Origin: an uncultured Lachnospiraceae bacterium
GTDB taxonomy: Bacteria; Bacillota; Clostridia; Lachnospirales; Lachnospiraceae
Assembly: GCA_902781325.1 (NCBI GenBank)
Contig: CACZJD010000016.1
Coordinates: 1 to 48,706, forward strand
Length of the DNA: 48,706 nt
Reading direction: 5' to 3'
This document shows positions 38,836-48,367 of this stretch, in pieces. Numbering within the stretch: the stretch's first letter is position 1; each line of letters begins with the position of its first letter. Position numbers and translations under genes: made by a program. The notes under the pieces were generated by a model, which saw only the letters and a program-made list of their open reading frames with translations, did not search any database and was not told the DNA's origin.

Positions 38836-38854
38836 GATCATTAATAACCATAAT

Positions 38855-39222
38855 ATATAAGCAGAGCTGTAAGCCGGGTTATGTCTTGGACGATCATCTA
38901 TCTAGGACCGCCGTCGCCGGCGGCCTCAAGCGACCCACCTGAGAGCGAGCCGGGCAAGCTCACAGCCCTCGTTTCGGTCTTGCTTCGGATGGGGTTTACA
39001 TGGCTCTCCGTGTTACCACGAAGACGGTAGTCTCTTACACTGCCTTTCCACCCTTACGGGCAGCGGGCACCGGCCCGCTGCTTCGCGGTATATCTCTGTT
39101 GCACTGGCCTGGGAGTCACCTCCACCGGACGTTATCCGGCATCCTGCCCTGTGAAGCCCGGACTTTCCTCGTCTGCGCCCTTTCGGGACCTGCAGCCGCG
39201 ATCGCCCGCCCTGCTTATATCC
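38855..39222 (-). ncRNA. rnpB: RNase P RNA, type A
   Basis: The minus strand shows the universal RNase P cores: GAGGAAAGTCCGGGCTTCAC near the 5' end, GTAAACCCCATCCG in the middle, and the AACCCGGCTTACAG 3' signature. The ends ATAAGCAG and CTGCTTAT pair to form P1. The approximately 365-nt length is normal for type A. The RNA is the catalytic part of the tRNA 5'-processing enzyme. Exact ends are estimated from P1 and the promoter. Confidence 0.95.
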
Positions 39223-45671: not shown

Positions 45672-46679
45672 TTATAGCACATCCCAGGTCTTGGGAATAT
45701 AGATTGATTCGAACATCTTGATCGCATATCTGTCAGTCATTGACGCGATGTAGTCGCAGACAGCTCTCCATACCGGTGTTCCGCTGCCGATCATCTTTTT
45801 CTGCAGTTCCGGCATCTCTTCCGGATGTTTCATGTAGTAATCGTAGAGGACCCCGATCATATTTTCCGCCCTGGACTCCTCAGCTTTGGCTACCGGATTG
45901 GTATACACCCGCTCAAACATAAAAGCCCGGAGTTTTTCAAAAGCCTCCCCGATCTCCTCTGACATGGTGATCACGGGTCTTCCCTGGCTGCTGGTAATGA
46001 TATCATGGATGAAGCGGTCCAGCCGCTGTCCCAAGGTCCTTCCGACCACAGAGGCAATACTCTCGGGAACATCCTCGTCAGTGAGGATCCCACCCCGGAT
46101 CGCGTCATCCATATCATGGTGGACATAAGCGATCTTGTCAGACAGCCGCACGATCTGTCCCTCGAGCGTAAAGGGCATCGTGTTCACCTGATGATTCACA
46201 ATCCCGTCCCTGACTTCCTCAGTGAGATTCATTCCGGCGCCGTTCTTCTCCAAAAGATCCACTGTCCGAAGGCTCTGCTCATTGTGACGGAACCCTTCAG
46301 GACTGATCCTGTTCAGGGCCCTTTCGCCGGCATGTCCGAACGGTGTGTGACCAAGATCATGGCCAAGCGCGATAGCTTCCGCCAGATCCTCATTGAGACG
46401 CAGCGCTTTGGCAATAGTCCTTGCGTTCTGCGAAACCTCCAGAGTATGCGTCATTCTGGTCCTGTAATGATCTCCGTCGGGGGACAGAAATACCTGCGTC
46501 TTATCTTTCAGTCTCCTGAATGATTTGCTGTGCAGGATCCTGTCTCTGTCTCTCTGAAATACAGGTCGTATGTCACACTGTTCTTCAGAAACCGATCTTC
46601 CCCTTGACTGCGCCGAAAATGCAGCCCAGGGAGCAAGGATCTCTTTTTCTCTTAATTCCAATTCTTCTCTGATCGTCAA
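45672..46679 (-). CDS. dgt: Deoxyguanosinetriphosphate triphosphohydrolase-like HD protein
   Basis: A 335-residue HD-domain dNTPase. Metal-site blocks are YRTRMTHTLEVSQ and ALGHDLGHTPFGHAGE, with SDKIAYVHHDMDDA further on. It converts dNTPs to nucleosides and tripolyphosphate, or hydrolyses related substrates. A TTG start at 46679 is chosen: AGAGG lies seven bases upstream, and the resulting LTIREELELREKE start (Met in vivo) matches family N-termini. The frame is open to 46745 without a site. It leads the dnaG-rpoD operon. Confidence 0.9.
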   Translation of the reverse strand: MTIREELELREKEILAPWAAFSAQSRGRSVSEEQCDIRPVFQRDRDRILHSKSFRRLKDKTQVFLSPDGDHYRTRMTHTLEVSQNARTIAKALRLNEDLAEAIALGHDLGHTPFGHAGERALNRISPEGFRHNEQSLRTVDLLEKNGAGMNLTEEVRDGIVNHQVNTMPFTLEGQIVRLSDKIAYVHHDMDDAIRGGILTDEDVPESIASVVGRTLGQRLDRFIHDIITSSQGRPVITMSEEIGEAFEKLRAFMFERVYTNPVAKAEESRAENMIGVLYDYYMKHPEEMPELQKKMIGSGTPVWRAVCDYIASMTDRYAIKMFESIYIPKTWDVL

Positions 46680-46715
46680 TGGAAGGCCTCTTTTACACCT
46701 GTAAATATCGAAATG

Positions 46716-46745
46716 ATAACAGAATTGCGAGACCGGCCTGTCCAA
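46716..46745 (-). promoter_or_regulatory. Possible promoter of the dgt-dnaG-rpoD operon
   Basis: Minus-strand TTGGAC (46745-46740), 18-base spacer, TGTTAT (46721-46716), about 37 bases ahead of the TTG start. The match is moderate. The stretch 46750-46830 upstream is extremely A+T-rich and shows nothing else. Confidence 0.4.
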
Positions 46746-46830: not shown

Positions 46831-46859
46831 TTGACTTTTTTTTCTATAACTAATAAAAT
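46831..46859 (+). promoter_or_regulatory. Promoter of the tRNA-Leu pair
   Basis: TTGACT (46831-46836), 17-base spacer, TAAAAT (46854-46859), with the first tRNA starting 12 bases later. Confidence 0.8.
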
Positions 46860-46870
46860 AACATTTGTTC

Positions 46871-46953
46871 GCAGGAGTGGCGGAATGGCAGACGCGCAGG
46901 CTTCAGGTGCCTGTTATGGCAACATAGTGTGGGTTCAAGTCCCATCTCCTGCA
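46871..46953 (+). tRNA. tRNA-Leu(CAG)
   Basis: Acceptor GCAGGAG/CTCCTGC, class II long variable arm, T loop TTCAAGT, and anticodon stem CAGGC/GCCTG around loop TTCAGGT with anticodon CAG. Discriminator A; no encoded CCA. Confidence 0.95.
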
Positions 46954-46978
46954 TCCTTGATAATTTAATCAGGAATAC

Positions 46979-47062
46979 GCGGAAGTGTCGGAACTGGCAG
47001 ACGAGCAAGACTAAGGATCTTGTGGTGGATACACCGTGTGGGTTCAAGTCCCATCTTCCGCA
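46979..47062 (+). tRNA. tRNA-Leu(AAG)
   Basis: Acceptor GCGGAAG/CTTCCGC, class II variable arm, T arm GTGGG/CCCAT, and anticodon stem CAAGA/TCTTG around loop CTAAGGA, giving anticodon AAG. An A34 leucine tRNA is uncommon in bacteria and would be expected to be edited to inosine. No encoded CCA. Confidence 0.92.
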
Positions 47063-47065
47063 GTA

Positions 47066-47096
47066 AAGAGAGAGCAGAAATGCTCTCTTTTTCTTT
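47066..47096 (+). terminator. Terminator of the tRNA-Leu operon
   Basis: AGAGAGCA (47069-47076) and TGCTCTCT (47081-47088) flank a GAAA loop and lead into TTTTTCTTT. Confidence 0.88.
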
Positions 47097-47102
47097 GCGC
47101 GT

Positions 47103-47253
47103 AAGCAATCCGCCATGCGCGGACAAACATGGGTACAGACGCAGAGAGCTCGCTCTCGTGTGGATGTACACATGGTTGGCCGCATACGGCGGATGCCGCG
47201 ACAGTCCCAAGCCGCGAAGCGGCGCAGGGACCTGTCGGCATGGCGAATTGCTT
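47103..47253. ncRNA. Compact four-way-junction structured element of unknown identity
   Basis: A 151-nt stretch folds almost completely. The closing stem is AAGCAAT (47103-47109) plus CGCCATGC (47111-47118) with GCATGGCG (47238-47245) plus ATTGCTT (47247-47253), one mismatch. Hairpin A spans 47119-47183 (GCGG/CCGC base, ATGGGTACA/TGTACACAT middle, GAGAG/CTCTC top). Hairpin B is 47187-47198 (CGGC/GCCG). Hairpin C is 47200-47236 (GACAGTCCC/GGGACCTGTC, then GCCGC/GCGGC). Only about five bases join the helices. It is flanked by terminators on both sides. Strand is unknown, and it could be a structured RNA or a palindromic repeat element. Confidence 0.6.
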
Positions 47254-47274
47254 CATATAACTCTTCAAATGCTG

Positions 47275-47307
47275 AAAAAAGCTGCCGCATATGCGACAGC
47301 TTTTTCT
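47275..47307. terminator. Bidirectional terminator between the structured element and tRNA-Val
   Basis: AAAAAGCTG and CAGCTTTTT, with inner CGCATATGCG, form a hairpin with T-tracts on both strands. On the minus strand it ends the tRNA-Val operon. On the plus strand it could end a transcript of the structured element. Confidence 0.82.
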
Positions 47308-47310
47308 TCG

Positions 47311-47384
47311 TGGAACCGACGGGGCTCGAACCCATGACCTCCCGCACGTCAAGCGGACGCTCATCCCAGCTGAGCTACGGTTCC
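47311..47384 (-). tRNA. tRNA-Val(GAC)
   Basis: Acceptor GGAACCG/CGGTTCC, T loop TTCGAGC, anticodon stem TCCGC/GCGGG and loop TTGACGT with anticodon GAC. No encoded CCA. Confidence 0.95.
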
Positions 47385-47413
47385 ATATTCTGTTCGTCCT
47401 CCGATAAGGACAG

Positions 47414-47487
47414 TGGAACCGACGGGGCTCGAACCCGTGACCTCTCGCGTGTGAGGCGAACGCTCATCCCAGCTGAGCTACGGTTCC
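47414..47487 (-). tRNA. tRNA-Val(CAC)
   Basis: The body is nearly identical to the neighbouring tRNA-Val(GAC), differing mainly in the anticodon arm: stem TTCGC/GCGAG, loop CTCACAC, anticodon CAC. The pair most likely arose by duplication. No encoded CCA. Confidence 0.95.
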
Positions 47488-47534
47488 ATGACCCTGTGCG
47501 ATTCTCTCTGACCTCGCCTTCAGAGTACCTATGT

Positions 47535-47572: not shown

Positions 47573-48367
47573 TTAAAGATATTTCGATGCCATCTCTATC
47601 AGCAGCGGAAGCGTTGATTCGAAGTCCACGCCATACCAGGGGTGATCCGGATTTCTCATCGTCGCGCGGATCGTCTCCGCTGTGTAGTCAGAAGCAATCT
47701 TGAAAGCGTCATCCATCGAGATACCTCTGACCATGGCTGCGGCTGCAGTGCTCGCGAACAGGTCTCCGGTGCCGTGGTAGGAAGCCGCGACTTTGTCATT
47801 CTGGTAGTTGAAGGCTGCGCGGTCAGCTGCTCTCATTCCATACACACCGGTCTTCCCCTCTGACAGGGAAGCACCTGTCAGGACTGCGGTCTTCGCTCCC
47901 ATATCACATAATTTACCGCAGAGCGCGGCATAATACGATTCATCCCGGTCTTCTCTGTATTTTGTCCCGGTCAGCATACAGGCTTCCGTGAGATTGGGTA
48001 CGATGATATCCGAACATTCGCAGAGTTTCCTGTTGCGGATCACATACTCCTCATCAAATCCTCTGTACAGCTTTCCGTTGTCTCCCATGACAGGATCAAC
48101 AAACACAAGCGTATTCTCATCCCTGAACATATCAACCAGGGAAAGAACCGTGTCGATCTCCTCAATGGAGCCCAGATATCCTGTGTAGATCGCGTCAAAC
48201 CTTATACCGTTATTCTTCCACTGCTCCGCAAACGCCATCATCTGCTCACTCAGACTGATCTTTTTGTAGTCAGGAAACAGCGTGTGTGTAGAAAAAAGCG
48301 CTGTGGGTATTGTAATGGAGCATTTGCCAAAACAGGATATATCCTGGATCGTCAGTATTCTTTTCAT
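47573..48367 (-). CDS. Pyridoxal/pyridoxamine kinase-like protein with an apparent core deletion
   Basis: A 264-residue ribokinase-fold protein of the PdxY/PdxK type, which phosphorylates vitamin B6 vitamers. Family blocks are ILTIQDISCFGKCSITI, STHTLF, FDAIYTGYLGS, FVDPVMGDNGK, PNLTEACMLTG and SYHGTGDLFAST (anion hole and catalytic Asp). Between CSITI and PTALFSTHT the usual stretch of about 15-17 residues (ALPIISAxG-type helix) is missing, without a frameshift; junction near 48308. Related proteins are about 280-290 residues. Activity is doubtful. It precedes the tRNA-Val promoter. Confidence 0.85.
   Translation of the reverse strand: MKRILTIQDISCFGKCSITIPTALFSTHTLFPDYKKISLSEQMMAFAEQWKNNGIRFDAIYTGYLGSIEEIDTVLSLVDMFRDENTLVFVDPVMGDNGKLYRGFDEEYVIRNRKLCECSDIIVPNLTEACMLTGTKYREDRDESYYAALCGKLCDMGAKTAVLTGASLSEGKTGVYGMRAADRAAFNYQNDKVAASYHGTGDLFASTAAAAMVRGISMDDAFKIASDYTAETIRATMRNPDHPWYGVDFESTLPLLIEMASKYL

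Follow-up and report, generated by a model that had tools for sequence, protein, structure and literature searches.

The question raised by this locus is what kind of sequence lies between two converging tRNA operons at positions 47103-47253 of the window (the whole 48,706-nt stretch of DNA that was analysed). An earlier note, made from the letters alone, had described this interval as a tightly folded four-way junction bounded by terminators, and had left a choice between an undescribed small RNA and a palindromic repeat that inserts near tRNA genes. The upstream transcription unit codes for tRNA-Leu(CAG) and tRNA-Leu(AAG) (46871-47062, + strand; Rfam tRNA matches) and ends in an intrinsic terminator at 47065-47096 (+ strand) composed of an A-tract, a stem-loop at 47069-47088 with an 8-bp stem and a GAAA loop, and a T-run at 47088-47096, which would be the insertion target in the model proposed below. 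This terminator was identified by reading the sequence; a terminator scan of the 46840-47520 region did not list it on the + strand, probably because its stem continues into the T-run. The same terminator is present in genomes G013 and G079 (-14.5 kcal/mol), and locus L140 has the orthologous tRNA-Leu terminator with no element behind it. Converging from the other side are tRNA-Val(GAC) and tRNA-Val(CAC) (47310-47487, - strand; Rfam tRNA matches) with a terminator at 47274-47305 (- strand; stem 47300-47284, tail AGCTTTTTTC) that was listed by the scan; bounding terminators are indeed present on both sides. The neighbouring protein genes, coding for a dGTP triphosphohydrolase (45672-46745, - strand) and a pyridoxamine kinase (47573-48367, - strand), are ordinary-looking. 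Over the whole window, Rfam families above threshold were limited to four tRNAs and an ordinary class A RNase P RNA (38854-39217, - strand, 300 bits), and around the element only tRNAs were recovered at gathering thresholds, with no known family over threshold on the element. A consensus scan for promoter-like sites gave none in 46840-47520. A small RNA gene is not supported for this copy, given the flanking terminators, the negative promoter scan and the lack of upstream conservation beyond about 12 nt, and its location between two terminators probably renders it inert for its neighbours.

The near-complete folding of the interval was confirmed by minimum free energy predictions. Specifically, 47103-47253 folds at -88.9 kcal/mol as + strand RNA (z -7.77 relative to 200 dinucleotide shuffles), at -84.3 kcal/mol as - strand RNA (z -8.77, dinucleotide shuffles) and at -55.9 as + strand DNA (z -8.76, dinucleotide shuffles), and none of 200 shuffles was as stable. 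The predicted + strand fold contains the 15-pair closing stem that had been claimed, with one interruption (5' half AAGCAATCCGCCATGC at 47103-47118; 3' half at 47238-47253, where ATTGCGT ends many copies), as well as the 65-nt long hairpin, now termed arm 1, at 47119-47183. Internal loops of the G.A type interrupt arm 1, whose tip is GAGCTCGCTC; for the copy in the window, 47138-47139 and 47163-47164 form the GA/GA loop closest to this tip. The 12-nt hairpin 2 is at 47187-47198 (CGGCGGATGCCG; family consensus CGGCGAATGCCG). Hairpin 3, which had also been described as bulged, is present at 47199-47237 but measures 39 nt and not 37, and exhibits a conserved CGACAG/CTGTCG base and a variable distal helix in the A1 and other-genus alignments described below. 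The start of the element required correction, as comparison of copies places the 5' boundary at GCGCG (47097-47101) instead of at 47103; this belongs to a GYGYG(T) motif (here GCGCGT, 47097-47102, + strand) that adjoins the T-run of the tRNA-Leu terminator. Overall the element measures about 155-160 nt, and its closing stem opens into a junction from which three arms extend.

The folded interval is not a single-locus gene but a member of a dispersed family of structured repeats that has many copies in gut and rumen Lachnospiraceae. The window's genome has a second full copy with 79% identity (BLAST), and many copies are present in genomes of the same genus. A covariance model (R1), built from an alignment of 24 full-length copies (A1), detected the family at E <= 0.01 in 42 of 62 genus genomes, the window's own included, with 0-22 matches per genome when at most 50 candidates were scored in each and with weaker antisense readings of one place possibly among them. 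The 20 genus genomes without any R1 match include many that are incomplete. At E <= 1e-4 the family was detected in 26 of 196 sampled genomes of the order, again counting the window's own, and other genera and families are among them. An exact core pattern, by which part of the loci were fetched, matched at least 118 stretches in GTDB genomes, and the titles among the 80 records listed name Lachnospiraceae, Clostridia, Clostridiales, Eubacterium, Roseburia, Blautia and Sarcina sp. DSM 11001. This exact pattern, 21 nt in length, had no match in viral contigs, and a blastn search with one copy gave nothing in phages and plasmids. The copy-count and homologue searches that the earlier note had proposed thus reveal a dispersed, multicopy family with homologues in many genomes. 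An open-licence literature search on the element, Clostridiales-1 and terminator-targeted repeats found no description of the element. Our analysis adds to the known repertoire a structured family with strong covariation that is absent from Rfam 15. The copy counts given below use 85 nonredundant copies, obtained from the best 91 of 150 aligned R1 matches (at least 78.6 bits, 98 loci) after removal of those at least 95% identical, and because orthologues are included they do not represent 85 independent insertions; nine were skipped in the arm-1 count and one in the flank-conservation and tandem counts. Counts for other genera use 19 of 43 other-genus R1 matches, mostly the best-scoring, with 17 of those loci taken for the Rfam scan.

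The pairing is conserved by covariation in all helices, both within the genus and in the copies from other genera, so the check for compensatory changes has a positive outcome. In A1, from whose sequences the structure was itself derived, 89.8% of cells are paired, and 182 cells exhibit two-sided changes, where shuffles gave 67 and sliding the partner gave no more than 36; further pair types were not above shuffles (55 versus 59.1). Two-sided changes occur in 18 of 23 pairs of arm 1, the sequence of which is very variable with its pairing retained, and hairpin 2 is almost invariant with 99% of its cells paired. The other-genus copies lie outside the model and constitute a stronger test. In their alignment, which was fitted to the model's structure in a manner that favours pairing and holds 22 matches from 19 loci (the three extra being two neighbouring copies and one antisense partial), 89.2% of cells are paired and 300 cells show two-sided changes, compared with 90 for shuffles and no more than 61 for a slid partner. 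These changes affect 49 of 55 pairs, including 11 of 14 closing-stem pairs, and further pair types are above shuffles. Palindromes are common between convergent genes, which would suit a chance or assembly palindrome; however, the presence of covarying homologues in many separate assemblies refutes that explanation, to which we assign virtually no weight.

The proposal that either strand could be functional finds no support in the mismatches of arm 1. Across 76 copies, with the two sides aligned under a scoring equal for G.U and A.C, arm 1 has 1826 Watson-Crick pairs, 337 G.A or A.G, 3 T.C or C.T, 39 G.U and 16 A.C, and the 337 versus 3 imbalance indicates that the G.A loops are a feature of the + strand. 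These + strand loops and the strong covariation both favour the explanation that the element is a host-functional structured RNA (a 3'-end or leader element, or a protein-binding small RNA) present in several copies per genome, with a fold that is kept as the RNA acts in trans or stabilises transcript ends. The excess of G.U over A.C, seen in arm 1 and in well-paired alignment columns (68 versus 42), also favours a host RNA, but in arm 1 only some 2% of the pairs are G.U, and its excess is not significant when Watson-Crick neighbours are required (19 versus 11, p = 0.20). The scarcity of G.U fits single-stranded DNA and RNA alike and does not decide between them. Also at odds with a host RNA is the distribution described above, with 0-22 matches per genome and none in 20 of 62 genus genomes, even though many of these are incomplete.

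The flanks of the copies show where the element begins and ends. Among 84 copies, conservation begins with the T-run and GYGYG just before the closing stem and stops with the closing stem, and there is little conservation more than about 12 nt upstream or directly downstream. GYGYG is present in 79 of the 85 copies (GCGCG in 59, GCGTG in 10 and GTGCG in 10). With conservation limited to these 12 or so nucleotides, the 84 copies have no conserved promoter upstream, which argues against a host RNA, as does the finding that a hairpin of -8 kcal/mol or lower abuts the T-run side in 52/79 copies, versus 12/79 windows further upstream and 15/79 shuffles. When an upstream hairpin and a T-run are both required, 48 of 85 copies pass and 37 fail; about half of the copies sit exactly at the end of an intrinsic-terminator T-run. 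Copies are mostly located at the 3' ends of transcription units and collinear with the upstream gene, which is co-directional for 53 of the 73 genus copies with both neighbours called, by a crude definition of neighbouring reading frames (at least 80 aa). By the same calls, a tRNA neighbours only 9 of 73 copies. The suggestion of a palindromic repeat that inserts near tRNA genes therefore stands as regards a dispersed, multicopy element with element-free orthologous sites and no Rfam family, but its tRNA part is too narrow, as what recurs is an intrinsic-terminator hairpin with its T-run. In a subset of loci (L201, L198, L179, L056, L203, L174 and others), a conserved tail resembling CCCGACCGAATCCACAACAGTTCGAAAAACTGGAA and bearing a small hairpin comes after the copy, and in L198 another element begins right after this tail.

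Element-free orthologous sites exist, and what the loci have in common is that one exact position behind a terminator is either occupied or vacant. In the leader of a trpB-like gene (locus B; 16 loci given), the element is present in 4 of 14 resolved orthologues and absent in 10, and it stands behind an orthologous T-box-type terminator; the T-box matches there (86 and 78.9 bits) are below the 93-bit cut-off, and the downstream product is a TrpB-like enzyme. In the carA leader (locus A), the 11 resolved of 12 orthologues comprise four full copies, three that keep only the 5' end (the first 30 nt or so of the element) and four other states. At the tRNA locus, with 11 resolved of 30 given, there are three full copies, one internally deleted copy, one nearly empty and one empty site, one different element of like architecture and four cases of other sequence. 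The tRNA-Leu/Val locus of G081 (L299:3064-3223, - strand) carries, in the position taken by the element in the window's genome, a different four-arm element with a GAGCTCGCTC arm tip that scores 26.6 bits with R1. As for the terminal inverted repeats and target-site duplications expected of transposase-mobilised MITEs, the closing stem supplies inverted ends, and no duplication is visible by eye in the locus A and B orthologues. Their 3' junctions lack a clean edge, and in locus B the replacement of a few bases of the target makes the 3' end uncertain. The copies in the carA and trpB-like leaders retain pairing and would be transcribed on read-through, and for this reason host RNA function stays the main rival, although we consider it unlikely.

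The element also leaves partial units behind itself. A truncated copy of its own 5' end is present downstream of 18 of 84 copies, where distant flank gave 3 and shuffles gave 1, and in several cases the trailing partial copy shares private arm sequence with the full one. When G013 and G079 are compared at the tRNA locus, the flanks are about 97% identical and the 55 pairs of the element differ by eight pair-keeping two-sided, five one-sided and two two-sided unpaired changes, so point mutation at the flank rate is insufficient as an explanation. We infer that differential retention of array units can explain this difference, as both loci keep array remnants. Separately, palindromic repeats with a spacing of about 140 nt, found via sub-threshold microRNA matches, are present downstream of a trpB-like gene at L044:3736-4325.

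When copies from other genera were analysed, a hairpin with a T-run was found inside arm 1 on the + strand in 16/19, and on the reverse strand likewise in 16/19; the corresponding count for the window's genus is 17/85 (Fisher p = 2e-7). Such frequent internal terminators count against a host RNA as well. Among the 17 of these copies with both neighbours called, 14 follow a co-directional gene or tRNA at a median distance of 6.5 nt. Thus, in other genera the element tends to be a terminator-like gene-end structure, and in the window's genus its place tends to be behind such a structure. The idea that genus copies without an upstream terminator more often carry an internal one was rejected (Fisher p = 0.60); upstream and internal terminators are independent within the genus, so no simple either-or rule applies. 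In the window's genome, a third copy (G000:C69:10223-10350, L448; 63.6 bits with R1) resembles the form with a terminator that prevails in other genera (AAAAAATGAGAGG...CCTCTCATTTTTT). At L429:3373-3443 (- strand), a group II intron match of 44.4 bits (cut-off 40) lies about 1.2 kb from an other-genus copy.

On balance we favour the conclusion that this is a non-autonomous structured element inserted strand-specifically at the 3' ends of transcription units, a reading we regard as probable though far from secure. The element would spread by insertion as a folded single strand, either ssDNA or RNA, and a putative trans-acting enzyme would recognise the terminator hairpin and T-run, or simply a T-rich 3'-end site. 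The bidirectional terminator that most of the other-genus copies examined carry should make full-length transcription rare in both forms, and the conserved fold may therefore serve propagation at least as much as a stable-RNA role. Terminator-hairpin targeting is made plausible by group IIC introns, for which passages of PMC10190682 describe recognition of a 5' DNA stem-loop at the insertion site. As counterpoints, the position behind terminators could reflect tolerance and not targeting, and pairing-retaining copies at orthologous sites could also mean host function. Neither a transposition event nor a responsible enzyme was seen in the genomes compared. If true, this model implies that an enzyme recognising terminator hairpins awaits discovery, and structured 'ncRNAs' that occur in many copies at the gene ends of Clostridia would be read differently.

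We considered two types of enzyme as partners. Fold, strand specificity and tandem units characterise REP biology, and the element resembles it in all three, as would befit a REP/BIME-like repeat that owes its mobility to a RAYT or IS200-type HUH transposase acting on single-stranded hairpins. Y1_Tnp genes are indeed present in 42 of 62 genus genomes, many of which have a lower-scoring, mostly longer class. However, R1 had no match in 32 fetched Y1 loci (20 of the RAYT-like lower-scoring class and 12 of the IS200 type), which are part of the genus set, and genomes G016 and G076 (96% complete) have elements and no Y1 match at E <= 1e-5. In addition, 8 of the 12 RAYT-like loci inspected have another repeat, CCCCAGAGGTC, no more than about 220 nt away from the gene. 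An HUH/RAYT partner is thus not supported by distribution or adjacency, and we give this explanation little credence. The eight loci with CCCCAGAGGTC nearby (L384, L385, L387, L389, L390, L391, L394 and L399) code for RAYT-like Y1 transposases of 251-292 aa, and L397 has a near match; CCCCAGAGGTC is a candidate REP partner of the RAYT-like genes of this genus. The second possibility is that a group IIC intron-type reverse transcriptase, of the kind that targets DNA stem-loops, mobilises the element in trans as its satellite. The target geometry is the same, with a hairpin 5' of the insertion site, and the GYGYG boundary resembles the GUGYG with which group II introns start. In opposition to this, no group II ribozyme match was present in the window or in 20 scanned copies, just 25 of the 62 genus genomes have RVT_1 (E <= 1e-5), and it is absent from G008, G005, G064 and G067, some of them incomplete, which have 19, 22, 14 and 8 element matches. 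The RVT_1 distribution thus does not support a reverse transcriptase partner, and this origin also seems quite improbable.

The closest relative among described families is Clostridiales-1 RNA (RF01699), for which the open-licence literature search found no explanation beyond its status as a 2010 candidate RNA. It carries the marks 'y n n' in the table of Weinberg et al. 2010 (PMC2864571), which we read as a likely RNA that is not cis-regulatory. RF01699 is over its cut-off in 21 of 61 genus genomes searched, in dispersed positions, and in G015 it gave 38 matches at E <= 10 from 38 candidates scored. When Rfam membership of the element was considered at permissive thresholds, only sub-threshold Clostridiales-1 matches were taken as meaningful, and microRNA matches were rejected as palindrome artefacts. 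On 20 element copies, RF01699 gave three matches with E < 1 (31.9, 22.8 and 21.9 bits; gathering cut-off 48) that did not include the window copy, and on 17 other-genus loci it matched three copies at 31.0-38.6 bits, again under the cut-off. Conversely, R1 aligns full-length and on the right strand to 10 of 20 Clostridiales-1 copies at 11.4-28.2 bits, scores that stand without a structure-preserving null.

The two families are alike in having a closing stem, a long arm 1 with a GCUUGC-type tip and two further arms in the same order and register, and in being dispersed in genomes of the same genus. In the 20 Clostridiales-1 copies the arm-1 mismatches are 56 G.A versus 1 C.T, and 10 of the 20 have their own partial 5' copy downstream, a count made without control; arm 1 shows no G.U excess (G.U 17 versus A.C 18). 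The differences are in arm 2, which is the 12-nt CGGCGAATGCCG in the element and long with a UGAGGA/UCCGAA internal motif in Clostridiales-1, in the flanks, as no GYGYG start behind a T-run was seen by eye in those of the 20 copies, and in the scores, all of which are below the 48-bit gathering cut-off for the element. A -10 box at the Clostridiales-1 start did not hold on longer flanks. The shared arm order, tip and trailing 5' copy, set against the differing arm 2, flanks and internal terminator, led us to file the element as probably a sister family of Clostridiales-1 and not Clostridiales-1 itself. A more tentative idea, which we rate as possible but would not expect to hold, is that both form one clan of mobile elements that act as a folded single strand, track intrinsic terminators (behind the host's or with their own bidirectional one in arm 1) and are moved by a terminator-recognising enzyme, as a bacterial analogue of SINEs. 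The rarity of internal terminators in Clostridiales-1 (3/20 by the same test) does not help this single-clan reading. Taken with the tie between the two families, the analysis suggests that the Clostridiales-1-type class comprises terminator-associated mobile elements and not RNA genes.

How does the element compare with known mobile systems? REP/REPIN-RAYT and BIME repeats are short, imperfectly palindromic, intergenic and strand-specific and form tandem units. The element is likewise palindromic, intergenic and strand-specific with tandem units, whereas its four-helix-junction fold is much larger and no R1 match lies beside the 20 fetched RAYT-like genes. The pneumococcal BOX, RUP and SPRITE repeats are, according to sections of PMC3049150, overrepresented between convergent genes; they are other families from another genus, set apart here by description and not by sequence, and those sections do not report insertion exactly behind host terminators. 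The element is nonetheless like them as they are portrayed there, namely as small interspersed repeats with extensive secondary structure that are thought to be non-autonomous. Finally, the element differs from group IIC introns in that it has no match to the ribozyme core or domain V, carries no protein gene and is only about 150 nt long, and it resembles their insertion, as passages of PMC10190682 describe it, in adjoining a 5' stem-loop in 52/79 copies.
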